Source: a beta proteobacterium AAP65
Lineage (GTDB): Bacteria; Pseudomonadota; Gammaproteobacteria; Burkholderiales; Burkholderiaceae_C
DNA: 64,000 nucleotides
Assembly (NCBI GenBank): GCA_001295865.1
Contig: LJHW01000004.1
Location: forward strand, 62,001 to 126,000
Reading direction: 5' to 3'
The translations under genes and the position numbers were made by a program. The notes beneath the pieces were generated by a model. It was given only the letters and a program-made list of their open reading frames with translations, was not told the origin of the DNA and made no database searches. Of the stretch, positions 18,550 to 28,225 are shown in pieces (position 1 is the first letter of the stretch; every line of letters starts with the position of its first letter).

Positions 18550-19446
18550 ATGCAAGGTGATCCCACACGAGGCCAGGCCTCGCCCGAGGGCGAAAACAGG
18601 GAACATCAATGGGCCAACGAGGAGCGCCCCTCCTCCTGGCCCAATGTGCCCGACGCCGATGCCGCCAAGCACCGCCTGGCGCGGCTGGCGCGCACCATCG
18701 AAGCCGACGTCATCCCGCGCCTCGTGCAGGCCCACCGTCCTGGCGCCGCCAACCCCCACCCCGGTTCGGTGCTGCCCCACCCCGCCGACATCGAGAACCT
18801 GCTGCAGCAGATCCTGCGCGGCGGCGAAACCGAAACGCTGGCCCTCATCGACGGCCTGCGTGAACGCGGTGTTTCGGTCGAGTCGCTCTACCTCGACATC
18901 TTCGGCCCCGTCGCGCGACGGCTGGGCGAGATGTGGGAGAACGACAGTTGTGACTTCAGCACCGTCACCGTGGCGCTCGGCCGGCTGCAGCGCCTGTTGC
19001 GCGAACTGAGCCCGGCTTTCGGCACCGAGATCGAACACCCGGCCAACGGCCGGCGCGCGCTGTTCGTGCAGCCGCGCGACGAGCAGCACAGCTTCGGGCT
19101 GTCGATGGTGGCGGAGTTTTTCCGCCGCGACGGCTGGGACGTCATCGGTGGCATCGGCGGTGCGGTCACCAGCCCCGTGGCCATGGTGCGCGACGAGTGG
19201 ATCGACATCATCGGTTTTTCGGTCGGCAGCGACAGCCGCCTGCCCTGGCTGCAGGAAACCATCGTCGCCGTGCGCGCCGCCTCGCGCAACGCGGCCCTGG
19301 CCGTGCTGGTAGGCGGCCCGCCCTTCGTGGCGCGCCCCGAAGTGGCCGTGGCGGTGGGTGCCGACGGCACCGCCAGCAACGGCAAGGAAGCGCCGCTGGT
19401 CGCAGAGCGGCTGCTCAGCACGGGCAGGCTGAGAAAAAATAAGTGA
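18550..19446 (+). CDS. ppaA: AerR/PpaA-type B12-binding regulator of photosynthesis genes
   Basis: A member of the AerR/PpaA family, cobalamin-binding light/redox antirepressors that act on PpsR/CrtJ. I chose ATG 18550 because GGAGG lies 6 nt upstream; it gives 298 residues. An N-terminal helical region with LGEMWENDSCDFSTV (126-139) resembles the B12-capping bundle of CarH. It is followed by a Rossmann-type B12 domain with the cobalamin ligand motif E-x-H-x-x-G as EQHSFG (178-183, His180). The SVGSDSRLPWL and LVGGPPF stretches match the rest of the fold. It lies between the divergent promoter region and ppsR, its presumed partner. Confidence 0.88.
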   Translation: MQGDPTRGQASPEGENREHQWANEERPSSWPNVPDADAAKHRLARLARTIEADVIPRLVQAHRPGAANPHPGSVLPHPADIENLLQQILRGGETETLALIDGLRERGVSVESLYLDIFGPVARRLGEMWENDSCDFSTVTVALGRLQRLLRELSPAFGTEIEHPANGRRALFVQPRDEQHSFGLSMVAEFFRRDGWDVIGGIGGAVTSPVAMVRDEWIDIIGFSVGSDSRLPWLQETIVAVRAASRNAALAVLVGGPPFVARPEVAVAVGADGTASNGKEAPLVAERLLSTGRLRKNK

Positions 19447-19517: not shown

Positions 19518-20984
19518 ATGCCTCGAAACACCGGCGAGCAGCACGCTCTCGGCGCCCTTGACGCCCAGAGCGCGGCACGGCTTGTCCAGGCCTCGAGCGA
19601 CGTGGCCCTGGTGCTCGACCACGAAGGCACCATCCTCGACGTCGTGACCCAGGTCGACGACGTGGCCACCCAGCAGCTGCGCGCCTGGCGTGGCAAGCCC
19701 TGGGTGCAGACCGTTTCGCCCGACAGCCGCCAGAAGGTGGAGGCCATGCTGCGCGACGCGCAGGCCGCCGCCGATGCCGACATCGGCCGCTGGCGCCAGG
19801 TGAACCACCCCATCGCCGACGGCGACGAACTGCCGCTGCTGTACTCGGCCGTGCGCCTGGGCGACGGTGAACGCGGCGGCAAGGGCCGCATCGTGGCCTT
19901 TGCGCGCGACCTGCGCGCCACCGTGGCGCTGCAGCGCCGCCTCATCGACACCCAACAGGCCATGGAGCGCGACTACTGGCGCTCGCGCGAGGCCGAAACA
20001 CGCTACCGGCATCTGCTGGAGACCTCTTCCGAAGCGGTGCTGATCGTCGACGGCAGCACGCAGAAGGTGCTGGAAGCCAACCCCGCGGCACGCACCCTGT
20101 GCGGCAGCACCCGCGCCAAGCTCGTTGGCGCTGGCTTGCCAGCGCTCTTCGATGCCGCGCACGGTGAACGCCTGCAAGACCTGCTGGCTGCGGCACGTTC
20201 GGTGGGCAAAAAGGATGCGGTGCGTGCGCGCCTGCTCGACGCGCAGTCGGAAGTCGCCGTCTCGGCCTCGGTGTTCCGCCAGGAAGATGCCGTGCTGGTG
20301 CTGGTTCGCCTGGCCCCGGTGCAGGCCACGGCCGCCGTGGGCAAGTCGGCCAGCCGGCGTGTTCTGCCTGCCGGCGCCCCGAGCTGGGAAGTGACGCTGG
20401 CTGCCTTCGTGCAGAACTCGCCCGACGGGCTGGTGTTCTGCGACGAAACCGGGCGCGTGCTGAGCGCGAACCGCGCTTTCCTGACACTGGCCGAGCTGAG
20501 CACCGAAGACCAGGCCCGCGGCCAGGCACTCGACCGCTGGCTGGGCCGCACCGGCGTTGAACTCGGCGTGCTGATCACCAACCTGCGCCAGCGCGGCAGC
20601 GTGGGGCGCTTTGTCACCGCGCTGCGCGGCGAGTACGGCACCGAAGTCGAGGTCGAGATCTCGGCCGCGCAGCTCGCACCCGACACCGAAACCGTGCTGG
20701 CCTTTGCCATCCGCGACATCGAACGCCGCATCAAGCCCGAGCCCGAAAGCAGCCGCGCGATGACACGTTCGGTCAGCGAACTCACCGAACTGGTGGGCCG
20801 GACGCCGCTGAAAGACATCGTCAGCGAGACCACCGACCTCATCGAGCAGCTCTGCATCGAGACCGCGCTGCAGATGTCCAACGACAACCGCGCCTCCGCG
20901 GCGCTGCTGCTGGGCCTGTCGCGCCAGAGCCTCTACGTGAAGCTGCGGCGTTACGGCCTGGGCAGCCTGGGCGGCGAAGAGTAA
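19518..20984 (+). CDS. ppsR: Photosynthesis gene transcription regulator PpsR (CrtJ)
   Basis: The aerobic repressor (and in Rubrivivax also activator) of bch, crt and puc genes. The 488 residues comprise an N-terminal domain (~20-145), a Q-linker helix with DTQQAMERDYWRSR (144-157), two PAS domains (~165-265 and ~290-400) and a Fis-type HTH at the C-terminus. The recognition helix is SRQSLYVKLRR (468-478). Cys446 (EQLCIETAL) lies in the HTH, where the redox-active cysteine of PpsR/CrtJ is found. Other cysteines are 195 and 308. No clear Shine-Dalgarno sequence precedes the ATG. Confidence 0.95.
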   Translation: MPRNTGEQHALGALDAQSAARLVQASSDVALVLDHEGTILDVVTQVDDVATQQLRAWRGKPWVQTVSPDSRQKVEAMLRDAQAAADADIGRWRQVNHPIADGDELPLLYSAVRLGDGERGGKGRIVAFARDLRATVALQRRLIDTQQAMERDYWRSREAETRYRHLLETSSEAVLIVDGSTQKVLEANPAARTLCGSTRAKLVGAGLPALFDAAHGERLQDLLAAARSVGKKDAVRARLLDAQSEVAVSASVFRQEDAVLVLVRLAPVQATAAVGKSASRRVLPAGAPSWEVTLAAFVQNSPDGLVFCDETGRVLSANRAFLTLAELSTEDQARGQALDRWLGRTGVELGVLITNLRQRGSVGRFVTALRGEYGTEVEVEISAAQLAPDTETVLAFAIRDIERRIKPEPESSRAMTRSVSELTELVGRTPLKDIVSETTDLIEQLCIETALQMSNDNRASAALLLGLSRQSLYVKLRRYGLGSLGGEE

Positions 20985-21090: not shown

Positions 21091-22005
21091 ATGAGCTCCA
21101 CGGCCCACGCCGCCCCCGCGACCCTGCCAGCGCCTTCGGCCATTGCCGAACTGCTCAAGCCCGTCACCTGGTTCCCGCCCATGTGGGCCTTCAGCTGCGG
21201 CGTCATCGCCTCTGGCGTGCCGCTGGCCGGGCACTGGATGCTCATCACCGTGGGCGTGCTGCTCAGTGGCCCGCTGGTCTGCGCCACCAGCCAGGCCGTG
21301 AACGATTGGTTCGACCGCCACGTCGACGCCATCAACGAACCGCACCGCCCCATCCCTTCGGGCCGCATGCCGGGGCGCTGGGGCCTGTACGTGGCCGTCA
21401 TCTGGACACTGCTGTCGCTGGCCGTGGCCACGCTGCTCGGGCCCTGGGGCTTTGGCGCGGCCGTGGTCGGGCTGCTGTTGGCCTGGGCTTACAGCGCCCC
21501 GCCGCTGCGCCTGAAGCGCAACGGCTGGTGGGGCTGCCTGGCCTGCGGCATCTGCTACGAAGGCCTGGCCTGGGTGACCGGGGGTGTGGTGATGGCCGGC
21601 GGCGCGGCGCCCGCGGCCGCCTCGCTGCTGCTGGCCGCGCTCTACAGCGGCGGGGCCCACGGCATCATGACGCTGAACGATTTCAAGGCCATCGAGGGCG
21701 ACCGCCAGATGGGCATAGGCTCGCTGCCGGTGCGCCTGGGGGTGCAAGGCGCGGCCCGCGTGGCCTGCCTCTTCATGGCGCTGCCGCAGGTCGTCGTGAT
21801 CGGCCTTCTGCTGCACTGGGGCCAGCCGCTGCACGCGGCCGCCGTGGCCGCGCTGCTGGTGGGCCAGGGCCTGATGATGCGGCGCTTCCTGCGCGACCCG
21901 GTGCGGCAGGCTCTCTGGTACAGCGGCTTCGGCGTGCCGCTCTTCGTCAGCGGCATGATGGTCAGCGCCTTCGCCTTGCGCGGCCTGGCCGGAGCAGCGG
22001 CATGA
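21091..22005 (+). CDS. bchG: Bacteriochlorophyll synthase
   Basis: Esterifies bacteriochlorophyllide a with geranylgeraniol or phytol. It has 304 residues and about eight or nine membrane helices, of the UbiA prenyltransferase superfamily. The Asp-rich motif NDWFDRHVDAINEPHRPIPSG begins at residue 71 (Asp72, Asp75, Asp79), and a second block ITLNDFK-like (GIMTLNDFKAIEGDR) lies later. The ATG at 21091 is the only start in frame because a TAG lies at 21052. A tiny frame ATG-CGC-TCA-TGA (21083-21094) overlaps this start. Its stop overlaps the next gene (ATGA). Confidence 0.95.
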   Translation: MSSTAHAAPATLPAPSAIAELLKPVTWFPPMWAFSCGVIASGVPLAGHWMLITVGVLLSGPLVCATSQAVNDWFDRHVDAINEPHRPIPSGRMPGRWGLYVAVIWTLLSLAVATLLGPWGFGAAVVGLLLAWAYSAPPLRLKRNGWWGCLACGICYEGLAWVTGGVVMAGGAAPAAASLLLAALYSGGAHGIMTLNDFKAIEGDRQMGIGSLPVRLGVQGAARVACLFMALPQVVVIGLLLHWGQPLHAAAVAALLVGQGLMMRRFLRDPVRQALWYSGFGVPLFVSGMMVSAFALRGLAGAAA

Positions 22006-23378
22006 GCACGCAAGCCCACCTCGGCTGGGCGGGCATCGTGCGCCTGGGCCTGGTGCAGGCCATGCTGGGCGCGGTGGTGGTGCTGACCACCTCCACGCTG
22101 AACCGCGTGATGGTGGTGGAACTGGCCCTGCCGGCCCTGCTGCCCGGCCTGCTGGTGGCGCTGCACTACGCGGTGCAGCTGAGCCGGCCGCGCATGGGTT
22201 ACGGCAGCGATGTCGGCGGGCGCCGCACCCCGTGGATCCTGGGGGGCATCGCCGTGCTGGCCCTGGGCGGCTTCGGCGCGGCGGTGGCCACCACCTGGAT
22301 GAACACCGCACGCGGCCCCGGCATCGTGCTGGCCGTGCTGAGTTTTGCGCTGGTGGGCGTGGGCGTCAGCGCGGGCGGCACTTCGCTGCTGGTGCTGCTG
22401 GCCAAACGTGTGGACGCACCGCGCCGCGCCTCGGCCGCCGCGCTGGTGTGGGTGATGATGATCGTCGGCTTCGCGGTCACCGCGGGGCTGGCCGGGCGTT
22501 TTCTCGACCCCTACACCCCGGCGCGCCTGATGGCGGTGTCAGGCACCGTGTCGCTGGTGGCCGTGGTGGTGGCGGCACTCGCACTTTGGGGCCTGGAAGG
22601 CCACGGCCGCGCGGCGCCTGCTGCGCAGAAGGCCCGGCCCGATTTCATGGCGGCACTGCGCGAGGTCTGGCGCGAGCCCGACGCACGCCGCTTCACCATC
22701 TTCGTCTTCGTCTCGATGCTGGCCTACAGCACCCAAGACCTGATCCTCGAACCCTTCGCGGGCGCCGTCTTCGGCTTCACGCCGGGTGCTTCCACGCAGC
22801 TGTCGGGGGTGCAGCACGGCGGCACGCTGATGGGCATGCTGCTGGCCGCCCTGGCGGGCCGGCGCGTGGCCGGTGCGCGCCTGGGCTCGTTGCGGGCCTG
22901 GACGGTGGGCGGCTGCATCGCCTCGGGCCTGGCGCTGCTGGGCCTGGTAGTGGCCGGCTCGGTGGCCCCGAACTGGCCGCTGCGCGCCAACGTCTTCATC
23001 CTCGGCGTGGCCAACGGTGCTTTCTCCATCGCCGCCATCGGCTCGATGATGAGCCTGGCCGGCGGCGCCACCGCCACCGGCGAAGCCCGTGAAGGCACGC
23101 GCATGGGCCTGTGGGGCGCTGCGCAGGCCATAGGTTTTGCCGTCGGCGGGCTCTTCGGCGCCGCCGCCAGCGACGTGGCGCGCTGGCTCATCGGCGACAT
23201 GGGCACCGCCTACGCCGCCGTGTTCGCCCTGGAAGCCGGCATGTTCGTCGCGGCAGCGCTGCTGGCCGCCCGCATCGGCGGGCCGCTGCTCGGCGCCGCG
23301 CCTGCCACCCGTCCGGCTTCGGCCGCCCCCCTCGTCGGCCCTGCCGACACCCAGGCCCTGCGGGCCGGAGGTTCCTGA
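22002..23378 (+). CDS. PucC-family transporter of the bchG-bchP operon
   Basis: A 458-residue, 12-helix MFS protein of the PucC/Bch2/LhaA family, in the same bchG-X-bchP position as orf428/bch2 in Rhodobacter clusters. Features include TLNRVMVVELALPALLPG, PRMGYGSDVGGRRTPWIL and STQDLILEPFAG. It is the second paralogue here after lhaA (7624-9078). Since no pucC follows pucBA, this or lhaA may serve LH2 assembly, but this is inference. It starts in an ATGA overlap with bchG and ends in a TGATG overlap with bchP. Confidence 0.85.
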   Translation: MSTQAHLGWAGIVRLGLVQAMLGAVVVLTTSTLNRVMVVELALPALLPGLLVALHYAVQLSRPRMGYGSDVGGRRTPWILGGIAVLALGGFGAAVATTWMNTARGPGIVLAVLSFALVGVGVSAGGTSLLVLLAKRVDAPRRASAAALVWVMMIVGFAVTAGLAGRFLDPYTPARLMAVSGTVSLVAVVVAALALWGLEGHGRAAPAAQKARPDFMAALREVWREPDARRFTIFVFVSMLAYSTQDLILEPFAGAVFGFTPGASTQLSGVQHGGTLMGMLLAALAGRRVAGARLGSLRAWTVGGCIASGLALLGLVVAGSVAPNWPLRANVFILGVANGAFSIAAIGSMMSLAGGATATGEAREGTRMGLWGAAQAIGFAVGGLFGAAASDVARWLIGDMGTAYAAVFALEAGMFVAAALLAARIGGPLLGAAPATRPASAAPLVGPADTQALRAGGS

Positions 23379-24592
23379 TGTCCACCCCCGACACTGCCAA
23401 GGCCTACGACGTCGTCGTCATCGGCGGCGGCCCTGCCGGCGCCACCGCCGCGCACGACCTGGCCAGCCAGGGCCGCAGCGTGCTGCTGCTCGACCGCGCC
23501 GGGCGCATCAAGCCTTGCGGCGGCGCTATCCCGCCCCGCGCCATCAAGGACTTCCAGATCCCTGACCACCTGCTCGTGGCCAAGGCCCGCTCGGCACGCA
23601 TGATCTCGCCGGCCGACCGCAAGGTCGACATCCCCATCGAGAACGGCTTTGTGGGCATGGTCGACCGCGAGCACTTCGACGAGTGGCTGCGCCAGCGCGC
23701 CGCCGGCAGCGGCGCCGTGCGCGCCACCGGCACCTTCGAGAAGATCGAACACACCGACGACGGCCTGGCTGTGGTGCACTTTCGCGCCCGCACCGACGAC
23801 GGCCCGGCCAGCGGCCACGCCGCCACGGTGCGCGCGCGCTGCGTCATCGGCGCCGACGGTGCGCGCTCGGCCGTGGCCCAGCAATGTGTGCCCGGCTCCC
23901 ACGACACCGAGTACGTCTTCGCGTACCACGAGATCGTGCGCGCCCCGGCCGTCAAGCCCGCGGGTTACGACGACACCCGCTGCGACGTCTACTACCGCGG
24001 CGAACTCAGCCCCGATTTCTACGGCTGGGTCTTCCCCCACGGCGACACGCTCAGCATCGGCACCGGCAGCGCCGACAAGGGCTTCTCCCTGCGCACGGCC
24101 ACCGCCACGCTGCGCCAGGCCGCCGGCATGGCCCACTTCGAGACCGTGCGCCGCGAAGGCGCGCCCCTGCCGATGAAGCCGCTCAAGCGCTGGGACGACG
24201 GCCGCAACGTCGTGCTGGCCGGCGACGCCGCCGGCGTGGTGGCGCCCTCCTCCGGCGAAGGCATCTACTACGCGATGTACGGCGGCCGGCTGGCGGCTGA
24301 CGCTGCCCAGGAGTTCCTGCGCACCGGCCAGGCCGCGGCGCTGGCGGGTGCCCGCAAACGTTTCATGAAGGCCCACGGCCGCGTGTTCTGGGTGCTGGGC
24401 ATCATGCAGCGCTTCTGGTACCGCAACGACAAGCGCCGCGAGAGCTTCGTCAAGATCTGCATGGACAAGGATGTCCAGCAACTGACTTTCGAGTCGTACA
24501 TGAACAAGGAACTGGTGCGCAAGAAGCCCATGGCCCATGTGCGCATCTTCTTCAAGGACATGGCTCACCTGCTGGGTTTGGCGCGCGTCTGA
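23378..24592 (+). CDS. bchP: Geranylgeranyl reductase
   Basis: A flavoprotein that reduces the geranylgeranyl tail of bacteriochlorophyll to phytyl. It has 404 residues. The FAD-binding motif VVVIGGGPAGATAA is at residues 12-25, KPCGGAIPPRAIKDF follows, and the second flavin motif VVLAGDAAGVVAPSSGEGIYYA lies in the C-terminal half. It is the third gene of the tightly coupled bchG-pucC-like-bchP operon. A strong hairpin follows 22 nt after its stop. Confidence 0.95.
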   Translation: MSTPDTAKAYDVVVIGGGPAGATAAHDLASQGRSVLLLDRAGRIKPCGGAIPPRAIKDFQIPDHLLVAKARSARMISPADRKVDIPIENGFVGMVDREHFDEWLRQRAAGSGAVRATGTFEKIEHTDDGLAVVHFRARTDDGPASGHAATVRARCVIGADGARSAVAQQCVPGSHDTEYVFAYHEIVRAPAVKPAGYDDTRCDVYYRGELSPDFYGWVFPHGDTLSIGTGSADKGFSLRTATATLRQAAGMAHFETVRREGAPLPMKPLKRWDDGRNVVLAGDAAGVVAPSSGEGIYYAMYGGRLAADAAQEFLRTGQAAALAGARKRFMKAHGRVFWVLGIMQRFWYRNDKRRESFVKICMDKDVQQLTFESYMNKELVRKKPMAHVRIFFKDMAHLLGLARV

Positions 24593-24614: not shown

Positions 24615-24636
24615 GGTGGCCGCAGCAGCGGCCACC
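24615..24636. terminator. Perfect 9-bp hairpin after bchP
   Basis: GGTGGCCGC-AGCA-GCGGCCACC is a perfect stem-loop without a T run. It may stabilise the bchP message end or act as a pause or Rho-assisted terminator before ppsR2. Confidence 0.5.
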
Positions 24637-24717
24637 GTGGCTGTCTGCGTGCCTGAAGAGGGCCTGCCGCGGTCTCCCTTTCTGCTCAGGTCGCCCACCG
24701 CACAGAAGGACATCCCC

Positions 24718-26127
24718 TTGAGCCGCCCCCCCACCCGCCTGCAGAACGATCTGGACGCCCTCTCGGGCTGCGCCGCGGGGCTGGCACGTGCCTTTGTTTC
24801 ACTGTCCTCCGACATCGCCCTCGTCATCGACGAACACGGCATCGTCACCGATGTGGTGCAGAACGAGCAGGCCCCGATGGACGCCACGGCGCAGGCCTGG
24901 ATAGGCCGGCCCTGGAGCCAGACCGTCACCGGCGACACCCGCGGCAAGATCGAGAGCCTGCTGGCCGATGCCTGCACCGCCGGGCTGGGCCGCCGCCGCG
25001 AGGTGAACCACACCGGTGAAGAGGGCCACGAACTGCCCGTGGCCTACACCGCGCTGCGCCTGGGCAGCAAGGGCCCGGTGCTGGCCGTGGGGCGCGACCT
25101 GCGCAGCCTGGCCGCCATCCAGCAGCGTTTTCTCGACACCCAGCAGGCGCTGGAGCGCAGCTACTGGCGCGCGCGCCACGGCGAGATGCGCTGCCGGCTG
25201 CTCTACCAGGTGGCCACCGACGCCGTGGCCAGCGTGGACGTGCGCCGCGAAAGCCTGGTGGCGGTGAACGCCGCCGCCGCGCGGCTGCTGCAGGTGGAAG
25301 GCCCCTCGGCCCAGGGCCGGCTGCTGGCGGCGCACTTCGACGCGCGCTCACGCCCGGGCGTGCTGGCGCTGCTGGCACGCGCCGGTGCCAGCCCGGAGGC
25401 CGTGGCCGCGCAGGCCCGGCTGTCCGGCACGCACCTGTCGATAGGCCTCACTGCCACGCGCCTGCCGGCGGCCCGCCAACCGACCGTGCTGCTGCGCCTG
25501 CGCCAGGCCGACCCGGTGCTCGACGACCCGCTGGCCCTCGGCTCGGCGCTGGCCAAGCATGTGGACGGCACGCCAGAAGGCATCGTCGTCGTCGACCGCC
25601 ACGCGCTGGTGCGCGAAGCCAATCTGGCTTTCGTGCAGATGGTGCACGCTGCCGACCTAGAAGCGGTCATCGGCCAGCCGCTGGAACGCTGGCTGCCGGG
25701 CACCGCCGTGGCCGCGCTGCACAGCCTGCAGCAGCATGGCCTGGCGCCCACCCAGCGCGTGACGCTGCTGCGCGGCGACGAGCCAGGCCTGTCCGTTGAC
25801 CTGGCCGGCGCCCTGCTCGACGACATCGGCGGTGGTGATGCCGGCTTCACCCTGCGCCCGGCCGGCGCCGATGTGCTGACCGCCGATGCCCGGGCCGCAG
25901 AACTCCTGCGCGCAATTCACGCGCTGGCGGCAGAATTGGGCGGTTCGCCGCTGCCCGAGCTGCTGCGCGAAGCCCAGGCCCTGACCCAACAGCACTTCGT
26001 GCGCACCGCGCTCGACCGCCACCCCGGGGATGCGCCTGCCGCCGCCAGACTGCTGGGCATCACGATCGATGAATTGGCGCAACTGCGCCGACAACCGGGC
26101 TTCACAGCCCCGCCGCCAACGAGGTAG
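24718..26127 (+). CDS. Second PpsR-like regulator with diverged HTH
   Basis: A clear paralogue of PpsR, colinear over its whole length: SSDIALVIDEHGIVTDVV, the RRREVNHTGEEGHELPVAYTA stretch, the linker DTQQALERSYWRAR, then PAS-like regions. I chose the TTG at 24718 (AGAAGGA just upstream, 469 residues, PpsR-like length); a GTG at 24616 would add 34 residues over the hairpin. In the C-terminal HTH the recognition helix is TIDELAQLRR (449-458) against SRQSLYVKLRR in PpsR, and the redox Cys position is Phe427. DNA binding is therefore doubtful or altered. It ends 4 nt before the phytochrome-like gene, so the two are cotranscribed. Confidence 0.82.
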   Translation: MSRPPTRLQNDLDALSGCAAGLARAFVSLSSDIALVIDEHGIVTDVVQNEQAPMDATAQAWIGRPWSQTVTGDTRGKIESLLADACTAGLGRRREVNHTGEEGHELPVAYTALRLGSKGPVLAVGRDLRSLAAIQQRFLDTQQALERSYWRARHGEMRCRLLYQVATDAVASVDVRRESLVAVNAAAARLLQVEGPSAQGRLLAAHFDARSRPGVLALLARAGASPEAVAAQARLSGTHLSIGLTATRLPAARQPTVLLRLRQADPVLDDPLALGSALAKHVDGTPEGIVVVDRHALVREANLAFVQMVHAADLEAVIGQPLERWLPGTAVAALHSLQQHGLAPTQRVTLLRGDEPGLSVDLAGALLDDIGGGDAGFTLRPAGADVLTADARAAELLRAIHALAAELGGSPLPELLREAQALTQQHFVRTALDRHPGDAPAAARLLGITIDELAQLRRQPGFTAPPPTR

Positions 26128-26131
26128 TTCC

Positions 26132-28225
26132 GTGTCGCGCAGTACGGCATACGGTCAAGCCAGCAGTTCCTTTACCGTTCCGCCCGGCCTGGTGGGCACC
26201 GTCCAGGCCCACGGCCTGCTGCTCGTGCTGCGTGAGCCGCAGCTGCGCATCGTGCAGGCCAGCAGCAGCGCCGCCCACTGGCTCGAACGCCCGTTGCCCA
26301 CCTTGCTGCTGGCCACCCTGCTCGATCTCGGCGGCGACGCCGACAGCCGGCTGCGCCAGCTGCTCGACACGCTGCAGCCTGCAGAACCCCGGCCCTGGCG
26401 CTGCACGCTGGGCGTGGCGCCCGCCGAGCGCGCCTACGAAGGCTGTGTGCACCGCGTCAGCACCGACACCGTGGTGCTGGAGCTCGAACCCCAGGCCTCG
26501 TCCACCACAGCGGGGCCCACCCAGGACGCCACAAGCTCGGCGCGCGCACCCACGCAGGCCGCCTTGCTGGCGCACCTCAGCCGCGCGGTGCAGCGCTTCA
26601 GCGAGGCCGGCTCGGTGGCGGCGCTGTCGGTGGCCGCCGCCCAGGCGGTGCGCGGTCTGCTCGGCCACGACCGCGTCTTCATCACCGAGTTCGGGCCCGA
26701 CGGCCGCGGCTGCGTGATCGCCGAAGACCGCGCGCCGCGACTGCCCGCCTGGTTGGGCCAGAACCGGCTGCTCGACGAAGCCTGGCCCGACCCTTCGGTG
26801 CGCTCCCGCGAGCTCTACCTGCACAAGCGGGTGCGGGTGCTGGTGGATGCCGCCGCAACGCCCTCCGAACTGATTCCCGCCTTGCCGCCGGGCAGTGGCG
26901 GCGGCCACGACCTGACGCTCGGCGAACTGCGCAGCACCTCGGCCGCGCACGCCGAACGCCTGCGCGCGCACGGCGTGGCCGCCAGCGTGGTGGCCGCACT
27001 CGTGCGCGAAGACCAGCTCTGGGGCCTGATCACCTGCCACCACCCGCAGCCGCGCCGGCCGGCCCAGGCCCTGCGCGCGGCGCTGGAGCTGCTGGCGGAA
27101 GTCTTCATGACGCGGGTGGTGGCGCTGGAGAACTACGCCCGCGCCCAGGTGCGTGCCGAGGTGCGCCGGCTGGAACAGCGCCTGCTGCAAGCCACGTCCG
27201 TCGAAGGCGACTGGCGTGCCGCCCTCCTGCGCAACGAAGCGGCGTTGCTGCAGCCCCTGGACGCCAGCGCCGCGCTGCTCTGGCATGGCGGCGAAGTGCT
27301 GGGCTGCGGCGCGGCGCCCGCCAGGCCGGCGCTGCAGGCGCTGGAGGCCTGGCTGCAGGTGCAAGACGACAGCGCGGCTTCCTGGCAGCACAGCGCCCTG
27401 CCGCTGCCGGGGGACGACGCTGACGGCCTGCCACAGGCCAGCGCCGGTGTGCTGGCGGTGAAGCTGTCGAGCCAGCAGCCCGATGCCCTGGTGTGGCTGC
27501 GCCGCGTACAACCCGACACCGGCCACTGCCTGCCTTGGACACGCAGCGACCTGTCGCTGGCGCAGGCCTACGGCGCGGCGCTGGTCGACATGATCCTGCA
27601 GGTCAACGCAGTGCGCCTGCTGATCGCCGAACACCAGCTCTCGCAGCTGCGCTCGGCCGTGGCCAATTCGCAGGAGGCCGCGGTCGTCACCGACGGTGCA
27701 CAGCGCAGCTTCTACCCCAACGCCGCCTTCCTGGCGCTGAGCGGACGCCGCCGTGACGAAGTAGGCAGCCTCGAGGCGCTGGCGGCACTGTTCACCCAGC
27801 CGGCGCTGGCCCACCGCGCCATCGGCCAGGTGCGCGCCGAACACCGGCCCTGGCAGGGCGAACTGGTGCTGCGCCGACCCGATGGCCGTGGCTTGCCCGT
27901 GGCTGTGCGCGCCGAGCCCGTGCAGGCCAATGAGCACCCGCTGCTGGGTTGTATCTTCATCTTCGAAGACCTCAGCGAAGCACACGAGGCCCAATCCCTG
28001 CGCGAGCGCCTGGAAGCGGCGCTGACACGCACCACCCGCGACGCGCGGCCCACCGAAGGCCAGGAACTGGTGGGCGCGATCATCGCCAACGCGAGCCTGG
28101 CCGCCATGGACATCGCCGATGGAGACGCCGGCCTGGCTGCAGCACCCTTGCTGGCGGAGGTGGAGGCTCGCACCGCACGTGCCACGGCGCTGCTGCAGCA
28201 GATCCGCGATGTCGGCGTGGCCTGA
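26132..28225 (+). CDS. Phytochrome-like protein lacking chromophore cysteine, PHY tongue and kinase
   Basis: I chose GTG 26132 (GAGG 7 nt upstream, 697 residues). The order is PAS (~14-120), GAF (~140-325), PHY (~330-500), PAS (~503-620) and a helical tail. Phytochrome marks are VQAHGLLLVL (24-33), RELYLHKRVRVLVD (226-239), LRSTSAAHAERLRAHGVAAS (266-285) and WGLITCHH (297-304). The biliverdin-attaching N-terminal Cys is Ser13, and no Cys stands in the GAF position used by plant-type phytochromes. Asp220 and His273 are kept. Between Trp455 and PW (468-469) only ~12 residues remain, so the PHY tongue with PRxSF is missing. The tail ends without an ATPase domain. Its partner is probably the PpsR paralogue just upstream. 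Confidence 0.82.
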   Translation: MSRSTAYGQASSSFTVPPGLVGTVQAHGLLLVLREPQLRIVQASSSAAHWLERPLPTLLLATLLDLGGDADSRLRQLLDTLQPAEPRPWRCTLGVAPAERAYEGCVHRVSTDTVVLELEPQASSTTAGPTQDATSSARAPTQAALLAHLSRAVQRFSEAGSVAALSVAAAQAVRGLLGHDRVFITEFGPDGRGCVIAEDRAPRLPAWLGQNRLLDEAWPDPSVRSRELYLHKRVRVLVDAAATPSELIPALPPGSGGGHDLTLGELRSTSAAHAERLRAHGVAASVVAALVREDQLWGLITCHHPQPRRPAQALRAALELLAEVFMTRVVALENYARAQVRAEVRRLEQRLLQATSVEGDWRAALLRNEAALLQPLDASAALLWHGGEVLGCGAAPARPALQALEAWLQVQDDSAASWQHSALPLPGDDADGLPQASAGVLAVKLSSQQPDALVWLRRVQPDTGHCLPWTRSDLSLAQAYGAALVDMILQVNAVRLLIAEHQLSQLRSAVANSQEAAVVTDGAQRSFYPNAAFLALSGRRRDEVGSLEALAALFTQPALAHRAIGQVRAEHRPWQGELVLRRPDGRGLPVAVRAEPVQANEHPLLGCIFIFEDLSEAHEAQSLRERLEAALTRTTRDARPTEGQELVGAIIANASLAAMDIADGDAGLAAAPLLAEVEARTARATALLQQIRDVGVA

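Follow-up and report, generated by a model that had tools for sequence, protein, structure and literature searches.

The photosynthesis gene cluster in a 64,000-nucleotide stretch of DNA from the beta proteobacterium AAP65 (contig LJHW01000004.1, positions 62,001 to 126,000; hereafter the window) includes a gene for a type-3 bacteriophytochrome-like protein without the bilin-linking Cys, the PASDIP motif and the PHY tongue. This protein and others with the same losses are referred to here as dark forms. On sequence grounds the protein falls by descent within the RpBphP1/BrBphP line. With a probability of about one half, it is a light-independent partner of PpsR, most likely PpsR1, acting through its C-terminal PAS9-HOS part. 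Regulation of photosynthesis genes without light is probable because the gene has been kept among them.

Domain organization and loss of photosensory features

The frame is open from a GTG start at 26132, with GAGG 7 nt 5' of it and 4 nt separating it from the ppsR2 stop, to a stop codon ending at 28225, and encodes 697 residues. Pfam matches to PAS_2 (45 bits), GAF (38 bits), PHY (70 bits) and PAS_9 (39 bits) bear out the PAS-GAF-PHY phytochrome proposed in a first-pass annotation; the core is present, with PHY matched over profile positions 2-116 of 183 only. In the predicted structure (predicted local distance difference test score of the model, 82.5) a strand at residues 452-458 is followed by a loop (459-470) and a helix (471-499), and helices 644-663 and 667-695 form a two-helix output, assigned to HOS from the helices and their place. 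The architecture is PAS-GAF-PHY-PAS9-HOS, as in RpBphP1 and BrBphP: PAS9 follows PHY, and Pfam matched no ATPase domain in the C-terminal tail. The first-pass annotation was right that no kinase is present but wrong to call it lost. A kinase is missing from RpBphP1 (PMC6899989) and from this genome's intact paralogue as well, so the absence is ancestral; of the overall first-pass reading, the phytochrome without Cys and tongue in a photosynthesis cluster stands and the kinase loss does not.

Judged by sequence, the protein falls outside the photoreceptor class on three tested features, namely the bilin Cys, PASDIP with its pocket, and the PRxSF tongue. Its first Cys is residue 91, and the biliverdin-linking Cys before the PAS domain is absent. 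That position is Ser13 if counted without gaps and a gap if aligned, so the proposed Ser13 replacement holds for the ungapped count only. No Cys occupies the biliverdin column in any of 21 aligned dark proteins, 10 of which are gapped there (including P0069, without an N-terminus). One, P0062, has a Cys nine residues past the column, two before VQPHG. The GAF site, LRSTSAAH, is likewise without Cys, as annotated. PASDIP is replaced save for one Asp aligning with D207. Among pocket residues, numbered as in DrBphP, M174, Y176, S206, I208, P209, Y263 and M267 are replaced, and D207, Y216, R222, R254, S257, H260, H290 and H291 are retained. At the tongue site 10 residues lie between WLR and PW, where aligned intact relatives have a PRRSF tongue; together with the modelled loop this confirms the reduction to about 12 residues described earlier. 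A check of the alignment for an overlooked Cys or full tongue found neither. The protein probably binds no bilin.

Recurrence and number of origins of dark forms

The first homologue search found 1222 proteins among 8000 scored candidates. Among the 120 listed, 16 lack PRxSF, the window's own included, and 104 have both PRxSF and DIP; 103 of the latter have Cys. The exception, P0075, is a long form with tongue and DIP and has Phe at the bilin Cys (TNFERE). The dark form of genome G357, used as query, gave 89 further proteins. All three motifs are intact in 74 of them, and three are dark (P0123, P0124 and P0164); 11 more have tongue and DIP, their Cys site not being read by the pattern used, and one is a fragment. 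Phytochromes were matched at an expect value (E) of 1e-60 in 25 of 81 genomes of the genus, seven bearing dark forms (the window's own, G000, with G303, G363, G316, G357, G356 and G365), 17 intact forms only, and one (G308) a match cut by a contig end. One of the seven dark forms is from Rubrivivax rivuli. All seven genes are open frames, down to about 40% identity, and this recurrence rejects a single decayed gene; the search for homologues with the same losses proposed in the first-pass annotation was thus positive. No dark form occurs among 18 matches in a family sample of 299 genomes, or, besides G000, among 9 matches in an order sample of 399 genomes (two of the 9 are also in the family sample). 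Among named loci, 33 of 35 have the tongue; those without it are R. rivuli KYPY4 (L071) and an uncultured beta proteobacterium (L073). At another locus (L074, 8098-10345, from a metagenome-assembled genome labelled Rhodoferax) an intact-type phytochrome is spread over two frames. Neither a natural tongue-less phytochrome nor a paper on this Rubrivivax protein was found in the literature covered, which left out most subscription papers.

The trees make two independent losses likely and a third possible. In a tree of PpsR1, BchG and BchP from 11 loci, the window, G303, G363 and G316 group together, G365 stands apart, and G357 and G356 are sisters of the intact G368 (100/100). A single dark clade is rejected on this tree by the approximately unbiased (AU) test (p=1e-42), a result that extends to the phytochrome only on the assumption that gene and cluster travelled together. 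Phytochrome trees also place G357 and G356 with the intact G368 and P0115, and with P0125 where included (support 96; 100/99). On the phytochrome tree alone one dark clade gives AU p=0.044 (quick tree) and p=0.053 (rooted set), borderline values that leave the number of origins unsettled. Long-branch attraction would group dark proteins, not separate them. G365, on a very long branch, is of uncertain placement.

Selection and the conserved output half

In dark forms the sensor half appears from sequence to decay while the output half is spared. Sites at least 95% invariant in 46 intact forms were scored in the 21 dark proteins. Losses number 28/75 in GAF and 13/67 in PHY, against 0/6 in PAS, 2/14 in PAS9 and 0/16 in HOS (GAF vs PAS9 plus HOS, p=0.0015); the count of 7/8 for the N-terminal extension is weak, gapped rows or a missing N-terminus being counted as lost. 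Among intact forms GAF and PHY both show an identity of 0.71; among 18 dark proteins GAF stands at 0.58 and PHY at 0.60. PAS9 identity is higher within dark (0.64) than within intact forms (0.43). Because the two groups differ in depth, the argument rests on the contrast between domains and not on raw identities.

Ratios of nonsynonymous to synonymous rates (dN/dS) were computed by NG86 unless given as YN00 and are rough, with dS high in this GC-rich genome. Between the window and G303 (R. rivuli) the dark gene gives 0.24 (YN00 0.09); the intact paralogue gives 0.21, PpsR2 0.15, PpsR1 0.07, BchG 0.05 and BchP 0.04. Within the dark gene the values are 0.04 for helix hI, 0.135 for GAF, 0.16 for PAS9, 0.33 for PAS and 0.41 for the truncated PHY. 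The G357-G356 pair gives 0.54 (YN00 0.20). Changes at codon positions 1/2/3 number 99/68/231 for window vs G303 (p=3e-25) and 150/146/225 for G357 vs G356 (p=1e-5). Simulated neutral drift left a mean of 3.5-20.6 stops, and 0-2.4% of runs were stop-free.

PpsR neighbours and a possible mechanism

The first-pass annotation placed its Cys-less, tongue-less phytochrome in a photosynthesis cluster beside a PpsR-type gene, and the gene order agrees. The window order, ppsR1-bchG-pucC-bchP-ppsR2-bphP, matches loci of the RpBphP1/BrBphP type, and the AerR-like gene, ppsR1 and the remaining cluster are intact beside the dark gene (Table 1). In all seven genomes the dark gene lies downstream of bchP in the cluster; ppsR2 stands between the two in G000, G303 and G363 and in none of the other four. 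G357, G356 and G365 have PpsR1 and no further PpsR match above 41 bits.

The PpsR2 next to the dark gene has a decayed helix-turn-helix (HTH). PpsR1 has an SRQ-type recognition helix, as have all 30 phytochrome-adjacent PpsR proteins of named loci outside the Rubrivivax type, and the Bradyrhizobium neighbour (L089) scores 47.4 bits for HTH_8. In every Rubrivivax-type PpsR2 aligned the recognition helix is incomplete, also beside intact phytochromes; L069 retains SRQSL. Pfam gives 15-19 bits for the HTH of L061, L068 and L060, and that of G363 is cut off. The same decay is common to the window PpsR2 and those of L061, L062, L063 and L068, including next to an intact phytochrome. Because the PpsR2 HTH is decayed, and 4 of the 7 genomes have no PpsR2 next to their dark gene, PpsR1 is most likely the partner, as far as sequence can indicate.

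A type-3 phytochrome of the BrBphP/RpBphP1 line, at its usual place in the cluster, would thus have been stripped of bilin Cys, pocket and tongue and would have retained its dimer helix and PAS9-HOS output. It may contact PpsR1, or mixed PpsR1/PpsR2 dimers, independently of light. Repression of the cluster could then be loosened or tuned, its level set by the abundance of the dark protein instead of by light. Both the contact and the direction of its effect are inferred. That the protein is permanently in a binding-competent form is a guess, made because a tongue-less protein cannot form the clamp of the far-red-absorbing (Pfr) state and because HOS of RpBphP1 binds PpsR2 in the red-absorbing (Pr) state. 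According to PMC6899989, Pr-form RpBphP1 binds PpsR2 via HOS, with PAS9 perhaps touching PAS2, and the authors urge caution on their model of the complex. A broader and slightly more tentative proposal is that several lineages independently made light-blind 'pseudo-phytochromes', removing bilin site and tongue and keeping the PpsR-contact half, with the PpsR2 DNA-binding helix decaying alongside; a light switch would in this way have turned into a constitutive PpsR1 adaptor.

Several observations weigh against a light-independent PpsR partner. Constraint persists on GAF in the window gene, and H290 and H291 are retained in 18 and 20 of 21 dark proteins, so a ligand may yet be bound. The G356-G357 ratio is 0.54 by NG86, against 0.20 by YN00, and the truncated PHY gives 0.41. 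Four of the seven genomes with a dark form have no PpsR2 next to it, and G195 keeps ppsR2 with the phytochrome gone; neither gene therefore strictly requires the other, and loss of the module is possible. A single origin is not clearly rejected by the phytochrome tree on its own.

Alternative functions

Conversion to a redox, heme or other tetrapyrrole sensor through a remodelled GAF pocket, with the signal relayed by PAS9-HOS, is unlikely. The purifying selection on GAF and the two mostly kept histidines would suit it, as would Cys392 (18/21 dark vs 10/46 intact) and Cys527 (8/21 vs 0/46), and RpBphP4 (Vuillet 2007) is reportedly a Cys-less redox sensor. The pocket, however, is without its tongue lid and varies between dark lineages, the counterpart of Y263 being R, Q, A, H, S, C or L. 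A redox Cys was sought and rejected: among the listed Cys columns none is both dark-specific and common to every dark lineage.

It is quite improbable that the gene is decaying towards deletion and is open only through recency of loss. The absence of the phytochrome in G195, the 24 of 44 bchP loci with no family member recognised behind them (see below) and the G356-G357 and truncated-PHY ratios fit such decay. Frames open in seven genomes, the window-R. rivuli ratio, the codon-position bias in both pairs, the rarity of stop-free neutral runs and the spared output sites do not.

Biliverdin could be made in some of these genomes. On another contig of the window's genome an intact long form (Cys, DIP and PRRSF; L006 8940-11846, G000:C56), on another tree branch than the cluster forms, adjoins a heme oxygenase (150 bits). 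G303 and G316 likewise have an intact phytochrome and a heme oxygenase, and in G363 the phytochrome is more distant and the heme oxygenase scores lower (53 bits). In a 13-genome test, G357, G356 and G365 (completeness 100, 83 and 90%) gave no second PHY protein and no match to PF01126, the only profile by which heme oxygenase was sought; the other 10 genomes matched it. A poor or altered light sensor binding biliverdin non-covalently where it is made, as in the window's genome, is hardly probable, since the retained Y216, R222, R254, S257, H260, H290 and Asp at D207 and the heme oxygenase beside the intact paralogue are set against the replaced Y176, I208, P209, Y263 and M267, the missing tongue and the persistence of dark forms in the three genomes that gave no match to PF01126. 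Another heme-oxygenase match, a weak one (about 28-30 bits; G000:C75:10011-10640 and G303:C28:110977-111606), lies inside frames of about 970 residues, perhaps as a fusion.

Comparison with known phytochromes

RpBphP1 of Rhodopseudomonas and BrBphP of Bradyrhizobium share with the dark protein its domain order, the lack of a kinase and a place beside ppsR2 in the cluster; the dark protein differs in lacking Cys, PASDIP, several pocket residues and tongue, and in the decayed HTH of its PpsR2 neighbour. Intact long forms of the order, including the paralogue beside bphO, are of the same family (43-49% identity) with the same output end, and have Cys, DIP and PRRSF intact. RpBphP4 of some R. palustris strains is reportedly also a natural phytochrome of a phototroph without the bilin Cys; it is a kinase-type protein with a tongue, unlike the dark form. 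The tongue-removed photosensory module of DrBphP (8bor) is laboratory-made, unlike the natural dark form, and presumably keeps its bilin site. RpBphP2 and RpBphP3 of R. palustris keep Cys and tongue. To our knowledge, apo-phytochrome roles all come from proteins still able to bind bilin or keeping the tongue. Here the sensor has been removed and the output kept by nature, apparently repeatedly, and the recurrent loss is a surprise. Since R. rivuli KYPY4, a collection strain, carries the gene, a phytochrome role without light and the HOS-PpsR1 contact are directly testable, and dark forms offer a natural tongue-less PHY domain. A likeness in function is offered by RpBphP2 and RpBphP3, which are light sensors required for LH4 in low light with light-quality sensing dispensable (PMC6879726).

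Neighbouring genes and related loci

Table 1. Features of the dark phytochrome gene and its neighbours in the window
Feature	Position	Strand	Basis
Dark (Cys-less, tongue-less) type-3 bacteriophytochrome-like protein, 697 aa	26132..28225	+	
Ser13 codon, counterpart of biliverdin-linking Cys by ungapped count	26168..26170	+	alignment uncertain here
PAS_2 domain, residues 21-121	26192..26494	+	Pfam
GAF domain, residues 169-326, with PASDIP replaced and substitutions at several positions of the bilin pocket	26636..27109	+	
Truncated PHY domain, residues 345-460, profile 2-116 of 183	27164..27511	+	Pfam
12-residue loop (459-470) in place of PHY tongue	27506..27541	+	alignment and predicted structure
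Long helix 471-499 (hI of RpBphP1); most conserved region within dark forms compared	27542..27628	+	
C-terminal PAS9 domain, residues 519-616	27686..27979	+	Pfam
HOS-type helical output region, helices 615-637, 644-663, 667-695	27974..28216	+	HOS by place and helices
B12-binding protein, AerR/PpaA-like	18550..19446	+	domain and place; name AerR inferred
ppsR1, full HTH; proposed partner	19518..20984	+	TIGR02040, 481 bits
bchG	21091..22005	+	
PucC/LhaA-like transporter gene	22002..23378	+	open frame
bchP	23378..24592	+	
ppsR2-like gene, start uncertain	24616..26127	+	TIGR02040, 238 bits, below 275.4 cut-off
Decayed FIS-type HTH of PpsR2	26000..26120	+	HTH_8, 12.1 bits, cut-off 22

The gene between bchG and bchP is taken to be PucC/LhaA-like from its place and sequence, without a family search. 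The full order ppsR1-bchG-pucC-bchP-ppsR2-bphP-bphO occurs in G322, G320 and G091, and G368 has the same order with bphO not within the fetched stretch. The Bradyrhizobium locus L089 matches in gene order; the order published for Bradyrhizobium matches too, but cycA intervenes (PMC10569730).

The bchP survey covered 44 loci in 43 of the 81 genus genomes, with stretches of 5.3-8.7 kb fetched and E 1e-6. Behind bchP stand a dark phytochrome in seven loci and an intact one in three, so that 7 of 10 phytochromes at this place in the genus are dark. Nothing was recognised at that threshold within the fetched stretches of 24 loci, and two were cut by contig ends. Four loci have ppsR2 without a phytochrome (G195, G346, G328 and G371); at that of G195 (L106), an intact BphP with BphO lies on another contig. 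In the remaining four (L158, L163, L164 and L170, from G340, G329, G364 and a second G346 locus), PpsR just 3' of bchP is cut to its N-domain and Q-linker, with a common tail, EASRAAFAAWL, and the rest of PpsR unmatched. These shortened proteins are possible dominant-negative partners of PpsR1.
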